A DNA stretch of 24,183 nt from a virus. A program made the translations under genes and the position numbers. Shown in pieces: positions 20 through 24,183 of the stretch. Below the pieces are notes generated by a model. It had not been told where the DNA came from, did not search any database, and was given only the letters and a program-made list of their open reading frames with translations. Location of the stretch: positions 1 through 24,183 of IMG/VR virus record IMGVR_UViG_3300034073_003551; one strand, 5' to 3'. Each line of letters starts with the position of its first letter. Position 1 is the first letter of the stretch.

Positions 20-210
20 TTATTGCGAAAAAAGGACCCGCAATTGAGAATCAGGAAGCGCTGCAATTGAGAATCAATACGGGCGAGAGTGATTCTCATT
101 CTCAGGGTATGGCGAGAATGGTTCTCATTTTCACGTGCAATTGCGACTGATTCTCATTTGCAAGGGGGAGTGGCTGCCCCTGTGATCGCTGCAATTGCGA
201 CTCATTCTCA
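20..210. repeat. Left array of Fur-box-like inverted repeats
   Basis: Four 15-bp sites resemble the 7-1-7 palindrome TGAGAATGATTCTCA: 84-98, 113-127, 142-156 and 196-210, with two mismatches each (last one plus the central base). Two half-sites lie at 45-53 and 68-76 inside an exact 14-bp repeat (40-53, 63-76). A 21-bp unit at 136-156 recurs at 190-210 with one mismatch. The first three full sites start 29 bp apart. The array lies 90 bp upstream of the rightward gene at 300. The consensus is close to the classical Fur box GATAATGATAATCATTATC. A Fur-type regulator is an inference; a phage DNA-binding protein is equally possible. Confidence 0.7.
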
Positions 211-299
211 AGTTACAGTATGTTACAGTTTGCCCCTACCGGCAGGATTCTGCGCTATATTTGTAGTGGCAGAAATGCCGCCCAATCGCAACTCGACAA

Positions 300-461
300 A
301 TGAAAATTGCCGATATGTTCGCGGCTCGACTCTCGCAATTGCAGCGGGAATCAGAGATCAGCGAACGCAAAACAACCGCGACAATCGCTCGCGCTCACGC
401 TCTCATCGCCGACCTACAGGAGATGGAAGCACGATGGGCGAGAGAGGATCGCAGCATATGA
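300..461 (+). CDS. Small helical protein, 53 aa, unknown function
   Basis: Read directly from the sequence: ATG at 300, TGA at 459-461, giving a 53-residue product that begins MKIADMFAARL and ends WAREDRSI. It is charged, proline-free and glycine-free, so probably one or two amphipathic helices; no catalytic motif is visible. There is no Shine-Dalgarno sequence; the word CCCAATCGC (281-289) ends 10 nt before the ATG, as it does before several other cassette genes. A strong terminator starts 6 nt after the stop, which supports a real transcript. A TATATT element at 256-261 could be a -10 box, but no good -35 accompanies it. Another + frame covering 89-568 runs through the terminator and is not favoured. 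Confidence 0.6.
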   Translation: MKIADMFAARLSQLQRESEISERKTTATIARAHALIADLQEMEARWAREDRSI

Positions 462-467
462 GAAGGG

Positions 468-490
468 GGGGGCAGATGCCCCCTTTTTTT
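468..490 (+). terminator. Intrinsic terminator, rightward
   Basis: GGGGGC (468-473), loop AGAT, GCCCCC (478-483), then seven T (484-490). It is a perfect 6-bp stem directly behind the 53-aa gene, and faces the leftward terminator at 499-523. Confidence 0.85.
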
Positions 491-498
491 ATGCCCAA

Positions 499-523
499 TA
501 AAAAAGCCCAGCGATTGCCGGGC
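499..523 (-). terminator. Intrinsic terminator, leftward
   Basis: GCCCAGC (506-512), loop GATT, GCCGGGC (517-523): a 7-bp stem with one mismatch, followed on the minus strand by six T (505-500). It ends the leftward cassette operon whose last gene stops at 549. Confidence 0.8.
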
Positions 524-548
524 GATTGGGTGCGGTGTTGTGGTGGCG

Positions 549-1247
549 CTACGTGGTGGCGGCTGTGATCGCCTGTTCCGCTTTGCGTTTGCCGGTTCCG
601 TGAGCGAGGAAAGCGATGATCACGCGGGCGCCTCGCTTGTGGCAGAGTTTGCAATCTGCGCACGTCTTGGTATCGGATCGTTGCGCTGGGCACACGAGAA
701 CCCGATTCCCTGCAGCGGTCGACCATGTGACGCGCTTCTCATCGGATGCCACAGCCATGACGGCAGGCAGACCGGCTGCAATTGCAGAATCAGCAGCGGC
801 TTCGCTTTCAGTGCTGACGTTCACGGTAAACCCGTTGCGATTGGCTGAGCGGATGAGGGAGAGATTCTCCCCGAGCTTCAGATCGTGGTGAGTGTAGGTG
901 TAACCGTTACGCCCGCGATTGGCTGCCACGATCGCCCGAATGAAGCGGCGGCTGATTCTCCCGGCTGTGTGGGGCAGATCGCCCGCCTGATTGTGGCGCC
1001 AGATCTGACCGATAGGCAGGGAGGCTATCGAGGCTAGGAATTCACGGAAGGGCACACCACGCTCACCACGCGTGATCCGTGCCCAGTGAAGGGCAAGTGG
1101 TCCCGATTCGGCATAACAGCCATTACCGGCAAAAGGGCAGGAGGCGGGGCAGGTTGTCTTGCTACTGGTGGAGACAGGGATCGGTCCGGTTTTGATATTT
1201 GAGCTGACGCGGGTGAGATGGAAGAGGAGCTTAGAAAGGTCAGACAT
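549..1247 (-). CDS. DUF7227-like cysteine-cluster phage protein
   Basis: A 232-aa protein that I recognise as the phage family often labelled DUF7227. Near the N terminus it has C33-x3-C37-x6-C44 in the block CPASCPFAGNGCYAESGP. Then come the family blocks QIWRHNQAGDLP (about 81-92) and NGYTYTHHDLK (about 114-124). Near the C terminus is a second cluster, C186, C196-x2-C199-x2-C202, followed by ARVIIAFLAHG. The cysteines suggest bound zinc or an iron-sulphur cluster; the CYAE block resembles the DUF5131 (Gp37/Gp68) family, but homology is not shown and the biochemical role is unknown. ATG at 1247 is preceded by two tandem GCGATTGGGT words and no clear ribosome site. It is last in the leftward cassette operon, before the terminator at 499-523. 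Confidence 0.8.
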   Translation of the reverse strand: MSDLSKLLFHLTRVSSNIKTGPIPVSTSSKTTCPASCPFAGNGCYAESGPLALHWARITRGERGVPFREFLASIASLPIGQIWRHNQAGDLPHTAGRISRRFIRAIVAANRGRNGYTYTHHDLKLGENLSLIRSANRNGFTVNVSTESEAAADSAIAAGLPAVMAVASDEKRVTWSTAAGNRVLVCPAQRSDTKTCADCKLCHKRGARVIIAFLAHGTGKRKAEQAITAATT

Positions 1248-1273
1248 CGTGCGATTGGGTGCGATTGGGTGAT
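1248..1273 (-). promoter_or_regulatory. Tandem ACCCAATCGC leader word
   Basis: The intergenic gap consists mainly of two abutting copies of ACCCAATCGC on the minus strand (plus positions 1251-1260 and 1261-1270), ending 3 nt before the start codon at 1247. The nine-base core CCCAATCGC also lies upstream of the starts at 300 (+), 1932, 2139 and 6751. Its role is unknown; it may be a translational or regulatory element that stands in for a Shine-Dalgarno sequence. Confidence 0.55.
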
Positions 1274-1408
1274 TCAGTCAGGCAGCTGCCACCATGGCGC
1301 CACGTCTTCAGGGTCGGGCTGCCAATCATCAGTCAGATCATGCTCTGCCAAATATTCGGCGCGTTCTTCCTCGCGATCGTGTGAGATCGGCGGTTGAAGG
1401 GGCAGCAT
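1274..1408 (-). CDS. Small acidic protein, 44 aa
   Basis: Read directly: ATG at 1408-1406, TGA at 1276-1274. The product is rich in Asp and Glu (EEERAEYL, TDDWQPDPEDV) with tryptophans near the C terminus (APWWQLPD). The start overlaps the upstream stop as TGATG, a coupling arrangement used throughout this genome, which supports it being a real gene. No family recognised. A small acidic phage protein may be a protein inhibitor or a DNA mimic, but nothing here shows that. Confidence 0.6.
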   Translation of the reverse strand: MLPLQPPISHDREEERAEYLAEHDLTDDWQPDPEDVAPWWQLPD

Positions 1409-1668
1409 CACATCAGATCGAACATATCGGCCATGGCTACGTCCAACAGCAGATCTGCTAGTTCCGCCTCATCGCGCTTCAATTTGCGGATGCGCTCATC
1501 AATGCGATCGCGCTGGGCATCGCTGAGATCAAATGCATCACGCTTGTGACGCTGCAACTCGAGACGGGTTTCTGTGATCTCACGCAAGGCGGCTTGAGCC
1601 TCGCTGGAATCGCTGAAATGAAATTTCGCCCAGGAGAGATCGGCGGCTGAGATTTCGTGGGTCGACAT
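1408..1668 (-). CDS. Hypothetical coiled-coil protein
   Basis: An 86-aa product from ATG 1668, beginning MSTHEISAADLSW. Residues about 20-75 are a charged heptad-like stretch (TRLELQRHKRDAF, RDRIDERIRKLKRDE) that should form a coiled coil or helical hairpin. A longer reading from TTG 1749 would add a proline-rich extension of 27 residues and would start directly after the upstream stop; I prefer the ATG because the extension looks non-coding. It is coupled to the next gene by TGATG. No family recognised. Confidence 0.55.
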   Translation of the reverse strand: MSTHEISAADLSWAKFHFSDSSEAQAALREITETRLELQRHKRDAFDLSDAQRDRIDERIRKLKRDEAELADLLLDVAMADMFDLM

Positions 1669-1749
1669 TAGGAAGCGAAGGGGTGAAGGGGGCGGGTTGG
1701 CGGATTGCGCGGATGAGGGCGGCGCTTTCGCCCGGTAGGAGGGGTCCAA

Positions 1750-1932
1750 TCATGCGAGAGCCTGCCGGACGCGATAGCGAGAGATTTGCAGACGGTCTGC
1801 AATTGCCGCTTGCGTCATACCGGCGCGGCGATGCATGCGGACGCGGCGGGCTTGCGACATCGTGGCCAGATCGATCAAGGCAACGATCAGTAGGAGGGGC
1901 AGCAGTCCCCACCAGATGAGAGAGAGAATCAT
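1750..1932 (-). CDS. Small membrane-anchored helix-turn-helix protein
   Basis: A 60-aa product. Residues 3-23 are strongly hydrophobic (LIWWGLLPLLLIVALIDL), one membrane segment. Residues 25-58 are a basic helix-turn-helix with the pattern GMTQAAIADRLQISRYRVRQ, typical of helix-turn-helix regions of resolvases and small transcription factors. Starting at Met25 would give a soluble 36-residue HTH instead; the ATG at 1932 is preceded by the CCCAATCGC leader word found before other cassette genes, which supports the longer form. Role inferred: a DNA-binding protein held at the membrane, possibly the local regulator of the cassette. Confidence 0.55.
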   Translation of the reverse strand: MILSLIWWGLLPLLLIVALIDLATMSQARRVRMHRRAGMTQAAIADRLQISRYRVRQALA

Positions 1933-1959
1933 GGTTTCGGGTGCGATTGGGTGAGATGG

Positions 1960-2139
1960 TCAGTTGATGCGAGATGCTGCAGCGGCAGGAATCACAGCCG
2001 CATGAGTGAGCAGCAGACCGGCGAGGAGTTGAGATGAGAGGTTCTTATTCGTGCCGATAGGGGGCAGCACTGCAGCGATGAACACAGCCACTCCAGCGGC
2101 GAGGGTCGCATAACTGGCGGCGATGAGAGCGTTCTTCAT
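1960..2139 (-). CDS. Small two-helix membrane protein
   Basis: A 59-aa product from ATG 2139, MKNALIAASYATLAAG. Two hydrophobic segments are visible, about residues 3-26 (to AVFIAAVLPP) and 37-55 (LLAGLLLTHAAVIPAAAA), separated by a polar loop TNKNLSSQ. It is the first gene of the leftward cassette operon. The leader holds CCCAATCGC 21 nt before the start and the promoter at 2227-2255. An upstream in-frame start at 2187 exists but would add a non-hydrophobic basic segment across the leader. Function unknown; the size and topology would fit a holin-like or small toxin-like protein, with no further evidence. Confidence 0.5.
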   Translation of the reverse strand: MKNALIAASYATLAAGVAVFIAAVLPPIGTNKNLSSQLLAGLLLTHAAVIPAAAASRIN

Positions 2140-2191
2140 GATTTCGGGTGCGCGGCGGGTGCGATTGGGAACCGCGCATGCATGCATCTTA

Positions 2192-2203
2192 GCCCCTAGG
2201 GGC
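2192..2203. repeat. Perfect 12-bp palindrome in the operon leader
   Basis: GCCCCTAGGGGC is a perfect palindrome between the candidate promoter (2227-2255) and the first start (2139). A second palindromic run, GCATGCATGC, follows at 2176-2185. Both lie in the transcribed leader, so they could be operators or RNA hairpins. Confidence 0.5.
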
Positions 2204-2226
2204 AGGAGTCGCTAGCAGCGTGCCAA

Positions 2227-2255
2227 ATATTAGGGCAGTTTTGCGATTGTCACAA
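2227..2255 (-). promoter_or_regulatory. Candidate promoter of the leftward cassette operon
   Basis: On the minus strand, TTGTGA (2255-2250), a 17-bp spacer, then TAATAT (2232-2227). Each box matches the sigma-70 consensus at four of six positions. It would start transcription about 80 nt upstream of the first gene at 2139. The Fur-box-like array begins about 125 bp further upstream. Confidence 0.45.
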
Positions 2256-2379
2256 CGTGCAGCACAGTGAGCCGGTTTGATCGCGTGGGGCATTGATGGG
2301 CACGCGGACTAGTTGCGAGCGTATGGACGCACCTAGGCAACGGCTCGCGATTGCGACCCATATATAAGGTCAGATCGTG

Positions 2380-2605
2380 TAAAAACGGTTCTCATTCTCC
2401 TGGGGGCATGCTGCGCCCTTGCTTATTGAAAATGCGTCGCAATTGCAATAGGTACCCGCACCTTTATTGCGAGTGATTCTCAGTTGCAGTATGCGTATTG
2501 CCGCATGCGAGAGCGATTCTCATTCTCATTCTTATTGCGAGTGATTCTCATTATCACCAACTCTGTGTGTGCGATTGAGGACTTGAGAATGATTCTCATT
2601 ATCAC
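2380..2605. repeat. Right array of Fur-box-like inverted repeats
   Basis: A perfect TGAGAATGATTCTCA palindrome lies at 2584-2598. The 19 bp from 2585 to 2603 match the classical Fur box at 16 positions. Weaker sites lie at 2468-2482, 2508-2522 and 2536-2550, with a half-site at about 2387-2394. A 19-bp unit, TTATTGCGAGTGATTCTCA, occurs exactly twice (2464-2482 and 2532-2550). The array contains no plausible gene. It lies upstream of the leftward cassette promoter and immediately before the 31-bp tandem repeats. Seen: the repeats. Inferred: binding of Fur or of a phage regulator. Confidence 0.75.
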
Positions 2606-3612: not shown

Positions 3613-3849
3613 CTAGTAGTGGACGTGGTGCTTGATGCCTCTGTACGTCAGATCGGCGTCAATGGTCGGCTGATCGTGTTTGGCATCTTGATAGGGCACA
3701 CCTCTGTATGCCTTGGCAAGAAGCAGTTGAGCGTTTTGCAGGCGCTGCTGGCGTTGCTGCTGCTGCTTGATGAGCTGCAGGTGATTGAGGATAGACATGG
3801 CGCTACGGCAGTAGTCGCAACCCCGTTCCCTGATGCGACCGATCTGCAA
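3613..3849 (-). CDS. DUF4278-like YRG-repeat small protein
   Basis: A 78-aa reading from TTG 3849, or 61 aa from ATG 3798 (MSILNHLQLIK). A glutamine-rich helix (KQQQQRQQRLQNAQ) is followed by two YRG units: KAYRGVPYQ and DLTYRGIKHHVHY. Paired YRGxxY units are the mark of DUF4278, a small family I associate with cyanobacteria; the role is unknown. The longer form includes a single CDYC pair. Which start is used is unclear, since neither has a good ribosome site. An overlapping serine-rich frame here is a shadow. Confidence 0.5.
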   Translation of the reverse strand: MQIGRIRERGCDYCRSAMSILNHLQLIKQQQQRQQRLQNAQLLLAKAYRGVPYQDAKHDQPTIDADLTYRGIKHHVHY

Positions 3850-3875
3850 CCCATAGGGTCGAACGTACTTTTACG

Positions 3876-19083: not shown

Positions 19084-20277
19084 TTACAGCTCGGCGGAGG
19101 CCAGCCAAACGCGGCCAAAAACGTAGGCATCAGTGTCAGCAGTTGTTGGAGCCACGTCATATCTAAATCCTTGAGTCGTAATCTCTCCCGTGGTTTCACT
19201 TGTTACTTGCAATGTAGAAACCGTACCTCCTGCGACTAGTGTCGGCGCAGTACGCATGGTAGTTTTATAATAAGCGTGATTGGCCAATCTGCCATTAGAG
19301 GCAACTGTTCCTCTAATAGAAACCGGAACCTGCGTGTAATACCTCTGACACAAACTTAGCTCCTGCCCGTAACTCCTACGCTCAAACGGTGTGACGACCG
19401 AGCCGACCTCAAGCTGCGCCAAGGCAAATGTGCCGCTGCTAAATTTTACGGCTGCATTAGTTCCGCCAGTTAGCGTTACTGTGCCGCCCTTGCTGATTGA
19501 ATTGCCGTCAACCGTTGCACTGGCCGTGCCAGTCCAGCTCAACGTATAAGTGCCACTAATAATGCTCAGCCCTTCAATCACCTGCTCAACACCACCGGCC
19601 GGTGCTGTCACTGTCCGGACGTTTTCGCTATCAGTCCAGGAGATTGACTGCCCAGATGTCACGACACGCCATCTATCAAGCGTGTATTCATTGGCGCCAC
19701 TGGTAGCAGTGCCAGACACATAGCCGCGTTGGTTAATAATTGGATTTCCATTAATCAGCAGGTTACGAAAACCCGAAAGCGGTCCGCCGTTCAGGTTGGC
19801 AACCTGCACTTGATCGGTGCCAGCGTCAATCTTGAACAGATTTGGCTCTGTGTCACCCTCAATCCTGAAGTCAACATCAGCGCCTCCATCATTGAATACC
19901 ACCTCAGTGGCGCCGTTGAAGTTGACGCGCTGCACACCGCCAGTAGCGATGCCAACCTGATTGGCACCAGGGCTGTAAACGCCAGTATCAGTACCGCTGT
20001 CTTTGAAATACAGGGATGGGGTAGCAGCAGTGCCGTCTTCTAGTGCGATCGTGCTCCATTCACCGTCAAGCTGATACAGCGTGATCCAGCCGCTGTTGGC
20101 AGCATTGCGGATTTTGAATAGCCCGTTCGTCGTATCCGCCCAAGGCTGGTAGGCAAACGTCGTGCTGGGTTCTGATGTGCCGCTGTTTTGACTGACAATC
20201 GCCGCCAAGGCATTGTTCAGGTCAGCACGGAACGCAGCGCCTGACTGGTTCGCAATGACGTAATCGTGTTGTGCCAT
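19084..20277 (-). CDS. Tail fibre / receptor-binding protein
   Basis: A 397-aa product. The N terminus (MAQHDYVIANQSGAAFRADL, NNALAAIVSQNSG) is a frequent fibre attachment module. A middle part with GTDTGVYSPGANQVGIATGG repeats the unit GVYSPGANQV seen in the S74 fibre (GVYSPGADQV), showing shared origin. From about residue 165 (GFRNLLINGNPIINQRG, then YTLDRWRV) it matches a jelly-roll type common in phage fibres, ending in a beta-rich tip. The start overlaps the tail-tip stop as TGATG. Confidence 0.8.
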   Translation of the reverse strand: MAQHDYVIANQSGAAFRADLNNALAAIVSQNSGTSEPSTTFAYQPWADTTNGLFKIRNAANSGWITLYQLDGEWSTIALEDGTAATPSLYFKDSGTDTGVYSPGANQVGIATGGVQRVNFNGATEVVFNDGGADVDFRIEGDTEPNLFKIDAGTDQVQVANLNGGPLSGFRNLLINGNPIINQRGYVSGTATSGANEYTLDRWRVVTSGQSISWTDSENVRTVTAPAGGVEQVIEGLSIISGTYTLSWTGTASATVDGNSISKGGTVTLTGGTNAAVKFSSGTFALAQLEVGSVVTPFERRSYGQELSLCQRYYTQVPVSIRGTVASNGRLANHAYYKTTMRTAPTLVAGGTVSTLQVTSETTGEITTQGFRYDVAPTTADTDAYVFGRVWLASAEL

Positions 20278-23200
20278 CAGATTTCCCTGCCGTACCCAGT
20301 GGCGATGTAGGTGAAGTCTCGACTGATCACGTTCGCTCCGCTGTCGTAGAAGGTGATGGTGAAACCAGTGCGAGTCTGGCTGGTAACCGTGTAATAGTTA
20401 CCTGTTGCCATATTGTAAGCCGTGATGCCAATAGCAGGTGCTTGGTAAAAGGCTTCATCAAAAGTCACGGCATACGATCCGGCACCACTGGTCAAATCGC
20501 CGACCGATTCGGTGCGTTGCTGGAGCTCCAACTCAGCGCCAAGCTCGCTGATGATGATGTTCTGCGACTCAGCTTCGCTGGTAGCGATGGTCTTGAACTG
20601 GAAGGCGCGGCCACGGGTAATGCCATTAACAAGCTCATGCCAATCGCTCCAAGTGGGCGAGCTGCCAGGATCGTCTGGGGTGGAGCGGACGTAAAGCACA
20701 GCGTTGACCTGATCCAGCACATCGCCGTCGATGTCAGTCCACGCATCAATCAAATCAGTCTGATCGTCCCAGAGATCGCCAATTTGATAGGGTGCCGTGA
20801 CAAAATACCTGCGCAGGTTTAGATCGAAAACAGCGCCTAAATCGTAAGTGCTGCCAAACTCATATTCGCCGCTGCCCTTGTTGCTGCTAGTGCCATCAAT
20901 CAGCCCTAAAGCGTCCCAATCGCCGTCTGCAGCCAAATCATCAACGAACACACCAAGAGCGAGGATCAGTCCGCTCAATGATGCGTTGTAAACCATGTTG
21001 GTGACGTTGCCATTGAATGGCGGTGACTCCAGCTCTTCCCTGTAGCTCTTGACCAGCAGGCGAGGTTGTGGTGTTGGGAGATCAACGATGGCAGTAGCGG
21101 GCGCAGTGGATCGCCTGCCACCATCGTCTTCAAACTTGATTAGATAGGTGCCCTCCAGCAGCGGCACTTGCTTTTGCGTTTGGCTACCTGCCGCGGCGCT
21201 CACAATATCCTGACTTTCTTGCCATACAGCGCCAGCAGACAACGTGCTGTGGCGGATCAATACTTTGCCGCCAAGCAGCACGTCTAGCTCAGTGGCACGG
21301 TCCCAACTGAGGATCGCTGTTGTCTCGCTGTTTGGAATAATGCTGATTCCTGTAGGCGTGGCAGGCCGCGCTGTTTTGCCGAATGTTGTTTTGGTCAGCA
21401 GCGCGGGCTGTATCGATGAGCGCAGGTTTGCACCAATGCTGTAAACCTTTATTTCGTAAACGCCTTCTATAGTGTCAAGAATTTCGTAATCTGTTCTCTT
21501 AACTGTTTGAATAGTCCAGTTGTCGCTGTCCCTACGCCATTCGACGCGGTAGAAAGGTGCATTTGCTGCTAGCTGCCAACTAACAATTAGCTTGGATTTA
21601 GCGATACCGCCTGCGTCATATAGCACTTCTTGTGCGCTTAGATTTGTTGGCGGCTCTGGAATGATGTTCAGGTCTGTAATATCACGCTGTTCCAGCGCAG
21701 TACCACGCTCGATGTAATCGTATTTGCTGGCGTTGTAAGCAATAGCGCTGATGGAGTATCGCAGCCCATCTTGCTCGCTAACGGTAAGCACCCGCCACGT
21801 TGAGGTTTGGATATTGCTTGTCTGGTAAATCCAAACACTATTGGCATTGGGTGCCACGCTGAACGCAGTGGATACCGTGATCACATCGCCAGCAATGGAT
21901 GCAATGCTGCGAGTCTCGACTGTGCCATCAGGCATGATCGCTGACAGTTCAGCGCCAGCAGCAGTCAAGCCAGTGGCATCGTCCACCGTGATTGCAGTCG
22001 TTGTTGCGCTTGCAATGCGACCACCACGCCGTGAGCCAGTGCGTACTGGATCTGCTACTTCAATAATCTGCCCTGGGCGTACAACCACACCAGCATCAAT
22101 CGAAGCAGTAAAGCTGATAATTTCGCTCTCGTAGCGTTCGGAATACAGCAGCCATTCACCGATCCGATATGCCTGCCCGCGACTTGTGCAAGCGAAAGCG
22201 CTGATTTCAGTCTTGACGACGCCGTACTTTTGAATGCCTTCGGCATCCTCAACAACCTCATATGCAATATCTCTGGTCTCGAGATCTAGGTAGCTGACAA
22301 CGCAAACGGTAGGGCGTGTTTTGCGGCTGCCGCCTTGATAGCTGAAACCTTCTTCAGTAATGTTTGCCAGTGTGAATAGATACGCTGTATCTGCTGGTTT
22401 GTCTTGACTGATCGTTAGCGCACCAGTGCTCCAATACGGCATCACCCGCATCACGGAGCACATATCATTGATCAGTTTGTACGCATCTTCTGCTGTCTGA
22501 ATGTTGACGTTGCAGGAGAAACGCGGCTCTATACCACCGAATCCATCAGGCACCAGCTCAGAGCAATACTGACTGGCGCTATAGAAGGCAAATTTGTCAA
22601 GCTGAGCTGCTTGGATGTGATCACCAAAGCCGTAACGAGTGCTTGTTAGCAGATCCCACAGGATCCACGCAGGATCGCTGCACCATTGAGCAGCGCCAAA
22701 CGTACCATTCCAGATGCCGCTGTAAATCAGCCTGCCGGTTGTGCTGTCGACTGTGGCATTGCTTGGAATCTGAACCTTGATGCCACGGATTAAATAGGAG
22801 CGTTGCGGGATGGCATTGAATTGTTCTGCATCAACGCGCAGTGCCACCAATGCGCTGTTGGGATATCGCAATTTGGCGTAAATAATTTCGGTGTAACTGG
22901 TCCAGTTGAATTTGCTGCTGATAGCAATGATTCCTGGAAGCTGTCGGTCCTCATCTGCCAGAGTTAAGCGTGTTACACGAATATCCGCCGTCGTAAAGCC
23001 AGAGGCGAGATTGATTAGATAATCACGCTGATATAGGTCCGCTGTCCTGCCGTATATGGTGTCTGTGATTACAGTTTGAAACCCGCCACTGTCATACTGA
23101 ACGGCAATAGCCAAGCTGACATCCACGCCCCATATGTCGCCTTTTTCATCGTTTGCTTGAAGTTGCGGAATTGAGATCGTGACGCGAACTGCGTTGATAT

Positions 23201-23585
23201 TGGAATCGGCGACTTGATAAGTTATTGGGCTGCCATATTGAACTTCAACCCCTACGGGCTTTTCATCTTCAATATCAGTAGCTACATAAAGCGGCGCTTG
23301 CGCTTGCGTGCCATTCCGCGTATTGACAACAACGCTTTGAAAATTGTAAGAGCCATCTGCGTTTTGAAGCGGTGTGTTATTAAGGAAAATGCTTTTCAAG
23401 CCATTCTTTAATCCCTCTATTTCGCCTTCACTAATCAAGTCAACAACAGTTGCATACTGCTTTGAATCAAGGCTATCTGGTGTGATTGTTGGCGTATAGG
23501 CGGTTTGCTGGGAACCACCGCCACCACCGCCGCCACCACCCTTACCACCACCACCGCCGCCGCCAGCACCGTAGATCCGTGTCAT
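20277..23585 (-). CDS. Tail tip attachment protein, lambda J type
   Basis: A 1102-aa product from ATG 23585, overlapping the upstream stop as TGATG; a GTG one codon earlier is less likely. A glycine-rich N terminus (about 8-30) leads to the J core: VVDLISEGEIEGLKNGLKSI, GDIWGVDVSLAIAVQYD, then CSDPAWILWDLLTSTRYGFG and AYKLINDMCSVMRVMPYW. Fibronectin-III-like segments follow (from about 640, PPTNLSAQEVLYDAGG; and about 755, TPTGISIIPNSETTAILSWD). The last 200 residues carry the outer beta region, probably contacting the receptor or fibres. Length is close to lambda J. It forms the tail tip and starts host recognition. Confidence 0.9.
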   Translation of the reverse strand: MTRIYGAGGGGGGGKGGGGGGGGGSQQTAYTPTITPDSLDSKQYATVVDLISEGEIEGLKNGLKSIFLNNTPLQNADGSYNFQSVVVNTRNGTQAQAPLYVATDIEDEKPVGVEVQYGSPITYQVADSNINAVRVTISIPQLQANDEKGDIWGVDVSLAIAVQYDSGGFQTVITDTIYGRTADLYQRDYLINLASGFTTADIRVTRLTLADEDRQLPGIIAISSKFNWTSYTEIIYAKLRYPNSALVALRVDAEQFNAIPQRSYLIRGIKVQIPSNATVDSTTGRLIYSGIWNGTFGAAQWCSDPAWILWDLLTSTRYGFGDHIQAAQLDKFAFYSASQYCSELVPDGFGGIEPRFSCNVNIQTAEDAYKLINDMCSVMRVMPYWSTGALTISQDKPADTAYLFTLANITEEGFSYQGGSRKTRPTVCVVSYLDLETRDIAYEVVEDAEGIQKYGVVKTEISAFACTSRGQAYRIGEWLLYSERYESEIISFTASIDAGVVVRPGQIIEVADPVRTGSRRGGRIASATTTAITVDDATGLTAAGAELSAIMPDGTVETRSIASIAGDVITVSTAFSVAPNANSVWIYQTSNIQTSTWRVLTVSEQDGLRYSISAIAYNASKYDYIERGTALEQRDITDLNIIPEPPTNLSAQEVLYDAGGIAKSKLIVSWQLAANAPFYRVEWRRDSDNWTIQTVKRTDYEILDTIEGVYEIKVYSIGANLRSSIQPALLTKTTFGKTARPATPTGISIIPNSETTAILSWDRATELDVLLGGKVLIRHSTLSAGAVWQESQDIVSAAAGSQTQKQVPLLEGTYLIKFEDDGGRRSTAPATAIVDLPTPQPRLLVKSYREELESPPFNGNVTNMVYNASLSGLILALGVFVDDLAADGDWDALGLIDGTSSNKGSGEYEFGSTYDLGAVFDLNLRRYFVTAPYQIGDLWDDQTDLIDAWTDIDGDVLDQVNAVLYVRSTPDDPGSSPTWSDWHELVNGITRGRAFQFKTIATSEAESQNIIISELGAELELQQRTESVGDLTSGAGSYAVTFDEAFYQAPAIGITAYNMATGNYYTVTSQTRTGFTITFYDSGANVISRDFTYIATGYGREI

Positions 23586-24183
23586 CACGCCACCACCTGC
23601 ACGGTGTCAATACCGGCGCTGATCACGACACTGCCGACGACAGTCTCGCCGTAAACAATCGGCACTGGTACGCCTTGTCTACTGGTTTGCTGGATGCCGC
23701 TGAAGCTATAGCTCTTGCGTGGGTCATTATTGTCTTGCGGTGTTCCAGGGGCGTTGATTTTGGGCGTTGGAGTTAGGAGCTGGGCGACGCCGCCAAGAAC
23801 CAGTGTTGCGCCAATGCCTACCAAGACGGTGCTAACAGCGACGGGAGCCGCTAGCCCCAAAAGCCCAATAGTTGCTCCTCCCGTAAAAAATGCTCCTGCA
23901 ATTAACAGTGCCCCTACGATGATTCGACCGGCTCCACCACCCGCACCAGCCAACACCGGAACAATCTTGATTTCCTGCTGTCCCGCAGGATCTTGAAGCT
24001 CTTTTGCAGTTAAGGCATATTTCCCCACACTCACGCGGTAATGCTGATCCGCCATGTGCTTTTCAAGCTGCGGGAAGTTCACCAGCAAAAAGCGCACTGC
24101 CTCGGCCGCACTAGCAACATCCGCCTCGAACACGCGCTGTCCCAGAAACTTGGCAAGGCGTCCGTACAGCTTGATCTTGCGCA
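23585..24183 (-). CDS. Tail assembly protein, lambda I type (5' end at window edge)
   Basis: The frame is open to the window edge: upstream of the GTG at 24133 it continues KLYGRLAKFLGQRVFEADVA, the typical family N terminus, so the true start is probably an ATG straddling position 24184. About 199 codons are visible. SVGKYALTAKEL is followed by two to three hydrophobic glycine-rich segments (GAGGGAGRIIVGALLIAGAF, GLLGLAAPVAVSTVLVGIGA) and LTPTPKINAPGTP, then YSFSGIQQTSRQGVPVPIVY. Lambda I helps form the tail tip with J and K. It directly precedes J, as in lambda. Confidence 0.85.
   Translation of the reverse strand, partial: RKIKLYGRLAKFLGQRVFEADVASAAEAVRFLLVNFPQLEKHMADQHYRVSVGKYALTAKELQDPAGQQEIKIVPVLAGAGGGAGRIIVGALLIAGAFFTGGATIGLLGLAAPVAVSTVLVGIGATLVLGGVAQLLTPTPKINAPGTPQDNNDPRKSYSFSGIQQTSRQGVPVPIVYGETVVGSVVISAGIDTVQVVA

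Follow-up and report, generated by a model that had tools for sequence, protein, structure and literature searches.

The IMG/VR virus record IMGVR_UViG_3300034073_003551 was analysed in its entirety (24,183 bp, hereafter the window). It possesses repeats in two clusters, array A (approximately 20-210) and array B (approximately 2380-2604). These arrays are probably operator clusters of a Fur-family repressor of the host, situated at the right, cohesive-end (cos) proximal end of the genome of a probable picocyanobacterial siphovirus, with LexA as a putative second lock in most related phages. From its sequence we read the region as a host-stress operator hub built from host regulators. A preliminary description of this DNA had placed the clusters at 20-210 and 2380-2605, where they are indeed found; array B includes degenerate copies at 2380 and 2427. 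The following Fur-type sites were detected, with scores from a position weight matrix (PWM) trained on relatives only, the window left out, and identities to the classical 19-bp Fur box.

About 41-54 and 62-76: extra TTGAGAATCA half-sites of array A
84-104, minus strand: array A site 1, TGAGAATGAGAATCACTCTCG; PWM 29.2 bits, 15/19
113-133, minus strand: array A site 2, TGAAAATGAGAACCATTCTCG; PWM 27.5, 15/19
142-162, minus strand: array A site 3, TGCAAATGAGAATCAGTCGCA; PWM 26.9, 13/19
190-210, plus strand: array A site 4, TGCAATTGCGACTCATTCTCA, facing the small plus-strand gene; PWM 23.3
2380-2400, minus strand: degenerate array B site, closest to the operon; PWM 11.4
2427-2447, minus strand: degenerate array B site; PWM 12.1
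2468-2488, minus strand: array B site; PWM 26.1
2508-2528, minus strand: array B site; PWM 26.5, 14/19
2536-2556, minus strand: array B site; PWM 30.5, 15/19
2584-2604, minus strand: best array B site, TGATAATGAGAATCATTCTCA; PWM 36.3, 17/19

The likeness to Fur boxes proposed earlier is borne out by shuffled sequences and by the matrix. The motif TGAGAATNATTCTCA is present at up to two mismatches in seven sites of the window, all within the arrays, against 0.25 in shuffles. The classical Fur box at 14 or more of its 19 positions yields nine strand-matches, likewise confined to the arrays (0.23 in shuffles), and at 15 or more positions five matches (0 in shuffles); the nine best window matches of the relatives-trained PWM are all located in the arrays. 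The best Fur-box match of the window, 2585-2603, agrees at 17 of 19 positions on the minus strand and at the previously reported 16 on the plus strand, and 2584-2598 forms a perfect 7-1-7 palindrome, as had been described. TGAGAATGATTCTCA is a perfect palindrome and shares 12 of the 14 fixed positions of the 7-1-7 inverted repeat tGATAATNATTATCa (variants allowed).

The array-B unit, TGA[A/T]AATGAGAATCATTCTCA, is found in 14 relatives besides the window, is 21 bp long and consists of three hexamers, two on the same strand and one inverted. Over these 15 phages the same-strand half-sites (GAKAAT to GAKAAT) are offset by 6 bp in 17 of 19 cases, the inverted ones by 7 or 13 bp. A 6-bp overlap of three-hexamer units is a hallmark of Fur-family operators. 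Some sites possess paired changes on both arms, e.g. TGCGAATCATTCGCA and TGAGAACCGTTCTCA; one-sided changes are commoner (34 vs 4).

A search with DUF7227, a protein encoded between the two arrays, provided 80 loci for comparison (L numbers below). About 20 related contigs, the nearest of these loci, retain array B, and about 12 have both arrays. Of 12 records of relatives searched for the motif, 11 contain it, and its locations in close relatives are the array regions. The last site lies 305-313 nt from the start of the operon in the main subgroup and 258-269 nt in another. In most relatives array A has the DUF7227 terminator on one side and cos/terS on the other, the gene content of the interval between the arrays varies, and some relatives possess array B only, so that the earlier notion of a self-contained cassette under shared control holds only in part. 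Nearly all sites are on the minus strand, the direction of the four-gene operon, and the small plus-strand gene has a detectable relative in L009 only.

Judging by the distribution of sites and genes, the most likely binder is a Fur-family protein of the host, and within that family most likely Fur (Zur or PerR being possible), not the 60-aa membrane protein with a helix-turn-helix (HTH) encoded inside the region. Locus L092 has four good sites but lacks both the HTH gene and DUF7227, L032/L039 have two sites but lack the HTH gene, and L097 has the HTH gene and no sites. A Fur-family protein (PF01475) is encoded in none of the ten phage records examined, the Prochlorococcus podovirus P-RSP2 included. 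Because the sites are uncoupled from the HTH gene and no phage Fur was found, a host protein is the more likely candidate. As a positive control, 50 kb of plasmid pAQ7 of Picosynechococcus contain five sites at up to three mismatches, three of them 22-35 bp upstream of a TonB receptor, an AraC-type regulator beside this receptor, and the siderophore operon.

It is unlikely that the arrays are instead operators of a phage regulator, either the 60-aa protein or another unrecognised phage protein, in the manner of CI-type immunity operators or stoperators. The HTH gene belongs to the genes that first follow array B; most array-bearing relatives retain it, and it lies beside arrays in L121, L208, L213, L225 and L227 too. 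Furthermore, relatives lacking Fur-type sites possess another repeat array at the array-B position, as would be expected of heteroimmune phages. However, besides the uncoupling described above, an unrelated podovirus also has the motif, as do viral contigs (36-61% GC) without detectable HTH, terL or tail-gene homologues, and the motif corresponds to the Fur box down to the 6-bp overlap. A linked cognate repressor gene, as expected for operators of the CI type, was not found, the sole candidate being uncoupled in L092, L032 and L097. Host control through Fur-type operators is therefore the part of the preliminary description that is best supported, and the 60-aa protein, its alternative, is disfavoured.

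The cyanobacterial LexA box has the consensus RGTACNNNDGTWCB (PMC3091678), and array B of most relatives contains exact matches to it. One of them, AGTACAGATGTACT in array B of L021, equals the published recA box of Prochlorococcus AS9601 (PMC3091678). Related loci contain 25 LexA boxes at 150 bp or less from a Fur-type site vs a single one in the other 144 kb. Among 118 listed loci picked by the Fur pattern alone, 57 LexA boxes are located within 300 bp of the pattern, distributed over 19 loci, whereas rotating the Fur positions in these loci leaves 5.5 nearby on average and 23 at most. Several of these loci show no similarity to the window phage in the genes tested. Going by these matches, Fur-type and LexA sites are repeatedly paired in viral DNA.

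Fur-type sites are not restricted to the relatives of the window phage. The pattern GAKAATGAKAATCATTMTC was recovered in at least 119 stretches of viral contigs vs 10 for the same pattern reversed, and 98 of the 118 listed loci have it outside any open reading frame (ORF) of 100 aa or more. Iron-uptake genes are absent from the most frequent Pfam/PHROG families listed for 150 neighbour ORFs of these sites, the PHROG lists covering the first 25 families. One lineage (L183, L184, L193 and L222) groups with the cultured Prochlorococcus podovirus P-RSP2, the terminases being 92% identical. P-RSP2 (host Prochlorococcus MIT9302) possesses five sites at no more than one mismatch vs 0.3 expected, and three of the five flank its DUF7227 gene on two sides. 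This DUF7227 is only distantly related to that of the window, and the parallel in site arrangement, as far as the sequences tell, is striking. The P-RSP2 gene (L238, 1514-2208, minus strand) is split over two frames and partly annotated, indicating a frameshift or a sequencing error.

Around the arrays, the window contains the following further elements.

1-13: cohesive (cos) end of the virion DNA, GTTCGAAATTACC; terS/terL just beyond it in relatives
212-229, plus strand: HLR1-like (RpaB) repeat GTTACAGTATGTTACAGT; two mismatches to KTTACAWWNNKTTACAWW, background 0.13 per window
235-261, plus strand: candidate promoter of the small gene, CCTACCGGCAGG (235-246) and -10-like TATATT (256-261)
300-461, plus strand: small ORF of 53 aa, 3' of array A; 49% identical to its relative
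457-523: back-to-back terminators, as described before; plus-strand stem 457-493, minus-strand stem 506-523
549-1247, minus strand: DUF7227 protein (PF23872, E 2.9e-85) with seven invariant cysteines
1408-1749, minus strand: small ORF (first ATG about 1668); only weak, sub-cut-off matches
1750-1932, minus strand: 60-aa protein with a predicted membrane segment and a sigma70-r4/resolvase-like HTH (PF04545, E 1.9e-5)
1960-2139, minus strand: 59-aa membrane-type ORF, first gene of the minus-strand operon
2137-2372, minus strand: conserved non-coding stretch between operon and array B, with a TTATATATGGG element and a gene-proximal CCTACCGGTAGG-like element

The genomes G001 (38.9 kb) and G002 (38.8 kb) have GGTAATTTCGAAC at both ends, L010, L013, L015 and L017 terminate at it, and the window begins with its reverse complement. 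Since this exact end recurs in relatives beside terS and terL, window position 1 is taken as the virion cohesive end. Array A thus ends near cos, upstream of terS; the non-coding DNA behind array B shows strong conservation, and terminase genes are situated near such sites in several other viral contigs, all of which would suit replication iterons or packaging elements resembling cosQ or cosB. We nevertheless regard such a role as quite improbable. Array A is weak or absent in L013, L017, L024 and L092, which have the same cos and terS and keep array B; array B itself is 2 kb away from cos, and the clustering with LexA boxes is unexpected for iterons. Sites for terminase binding (cosB, or TerS at cos) were rejected as the principal explanation on the strength of these four loci. 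Terminase proximity (about 19 of the 118 listed loci, counted by eye) is close to the expectation from genome size, and no enrichment is claimed.

Array B, then, is upstream of a small variable operon (the membrane-HTH protein, DUF7227 and others), and array A is between this operon and cos/terS, upstream of the small opposite gene. In the scheme that we infer from sequence, as regards protein binding, the Fur-family member, repression, host and physiological output alike, Fur-family dimers would sit on the overlapping boxes in metal-replete cells and keep nearby promoters low, including that of the variable right-end operon. Through array A, repression would concern the small gene and possibly also the stretch towards terS. 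Iron (or redox) stress would open the promoters near the arrays, and in most relatives the LexA boxes of array B would add a second lock, responsive to DNA damage. About ten sites per genome in arrays exceed the need of a single promoter, and in the laboratory multicopy boxes are well known to titrate Fur. On that account the sites might bind host Fur mainly as decoys: each replicating genome would offer so many copies that Fur is titrated and host iron uptake switched on. We hold this to be very unlikely: the conserved spacing from last site to operon, the mixing with LexA sites and the conserved promoter-like elements beside the arrays point to local control.

The HLR1-like direct repeat (consensus KTTACAWWNNKTTACAWW as quoted in PMC13421787) adjoins the last site of array A; it is identical in L009 (1386-1403) and also present in L025 (2466-2483). 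A link to RpaB, and so to the light response, is suggestive only. Tentatively, and with rather more doubt than attaches to the Fur-type operators themselves, the region might be a hub shared among diverse cyanophages and composed of host sites only (Fur-family, LexA, perhaps RpaB). Through these sites the virus, without encoding a repressor, would sense stress related to iron, DNA damage and light; the hub would serve as a lock with several inputs on a variable cargo operon or on late/lytic genes near cos.

Several observations weigh against host Fur-type operators. The window has no match to the LexA consensus; its array B has lost the LexA box or never had it. Fur-type sites have been lost in L035, L037, L069 and L097, and in the first three, which are more distant relatives, the repeats are missing while the genes persist, a pattern that the preliminary description had named as counter-evidence. 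L035 (4572-4700), L037 (1058-1181) and L069 (4753-4882) possess four repeats, each about 33 nt long (CAAATAACAATTAACCGCAAATA...), at the array-B position, possibly operators of another regulator, and these would fit exchangeable phage-specific operators; because the three loci carry such an array there, the position may be a site of operator-set exchange. The cyanobacterium of pAQ7 is more distant than the likely host family Cyanobiaceae, and the matches on pAQ7 are imperfect. For one cyanophage gene a Pho box had been predicted, yet PhoB did not bind and the gene showed no response (PMC10976474); since Pho-box prediction in cyanophages is unreliable without an assay, prediction of Fur sites alone can mislead as well. 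The cyanosiphoviruses S-CBS1, S-CBS3, P-HS2 and MED4-117 had no sites on scanning. Furthermore, a general link of DUF7227 to Fur-type sites was rejected, as none is located near the DUF7227 genes of other phages (39-56% identity), and for this reason no role in iron metabolism can be deduced for DUF7227.

Earlier reports of Fur boxes in cyanophages were not found in the open-licence literature, and we know of no Fur array in phage CTX. The promoter of the latter is directly repressed by host LexA (PMC9502458), but CTX differs in having its own repressor RstR in addition. Control of phage genes by host Fur, which had been called unexpected, has a precedent in the stx1 promoter of Stx1 prophages, which host Fur represses (PMC10042803). 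There, too, a host Fur site controls a phage-borne gene, but it is one site in the core promoter of a cargo gene, whereas here about ten sites form two arrays, with no toxin gene and in other hosts. PhoB boxes are present in the cyanophages P-SSM2 and S-PM2 (PMC10976474). These likewise place a host nutrient regulator over cyanophage genes; they sense phosphate via PhoB, in contrast to the arrays of Fur-family and LexA-type sites described here. In function, the nearest parallel is the colicin Ib (cib) promoter of enterobacterial plasmids, which is "double-locked" by LexA and Fur and fully expressed when both stresses act (PMC4675545), and in which host boxes for LexA and for Fur are similarly combined on a mobile element. 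It differs in possessing single sites in front of a plasmid toxin gene in enterobacteria, as opposed to multi-site arrays at two positions in cyanophages. Both box types together, as in colicin Ib, are present in array B of most relatives and in 19 of the 118 listed loci, whereas the window itself has the Fur-type part only.

Iron limits marine picocyanobacteria, and phages cause much of picocyanobacterial mortality. The established nutrient link in cyanophage gene control has so far been phosphate (PhoB). Should host Fur and LexA indeed bind the arrays, phage expression in these hosts would be tied to iron and DNA damage, and stress-dependent infection or induction would gain a concrete mechanism.

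Regarding the neighbouring genes, the arrangement of CCTACCGGCAGG and TATATT is repeated in L009, L024 and L025; a promoter scan at 235-261 gave no match. The AlphaFold2 model of the DUF7227 protein has a predicted local distance difference test score of 94.9, and a fold search of the PDB returned no match at E of 0.001 or less and no convincing structural relative. The protein probably binds a metal or an Fe-S cluster, a metal centre being suggested because its seven cysteines are invariant. DUF7227 occurs widely among phages of Pseudomonas and of cyanobacteria. The 60-aa membrane-HTH protein is present in most relatives (40-81% identity), and a tblastn search of the related loci found no relative of the 59-aa ORF (1960-2139). 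The non-coding stretch 2137-2372 has a mean column identity of 76% in one alignment of 15 phages. A second repeat array (2606-2722), made of 31-nt units TAAACCGACCCCTTGCAAGAACTT, follows array B immediately, where the tail gene ends; it has counterparts of the same period in L035, L037 and L069 and similar units in L092.

The window phage is probably a siphovirus and its hosts are probably picocyanobacteria. The latter assignment draws on a Glutamine-II riboswitch, the LexA-box type of the relatives and the relationship to Prochlorococcus siphoviruses. A lambda-like tail tip protein is encoded at 20277-23588, its best named relatives being Prochlorococcus siphoviruses (about 37%); further genes encode an exonuclease, a RusA-type resolvase and a replication protein. 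An INPHARED search for the nearest phage DNA gave no match, and a prophage search of genome contigs for the host gave only two distant contigs of metagenome-assembled genomes. Among four near-complete relatives, one (G001) possesses an integrase, and therefore lysogeny is possible in at least one relative. The tail tip gene of G001 (L101:16270-20000) encodes a protein whose start resembles an intein/Hint domain (GGGCFLGHTLVAVPNG...), a feature absent from the window copy. The Glutamine-II riboswitch (3815-3868, minus strand; RF01704, 37.8 bits), a type known in cyanobacteria and their phages, is followed by a short tyrosine-rich minus-strand ORF (within 3613-3849), the usual downstream-peptide arrangement. 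Finally, TGCGATTGGGTG (CACCCAATCGCA on the minus strand) recurs at 1250-1263, 1942-1955, 2159-2172 and about 6765, near the starts of several minus-strand genes, as a possible translation or leader element.

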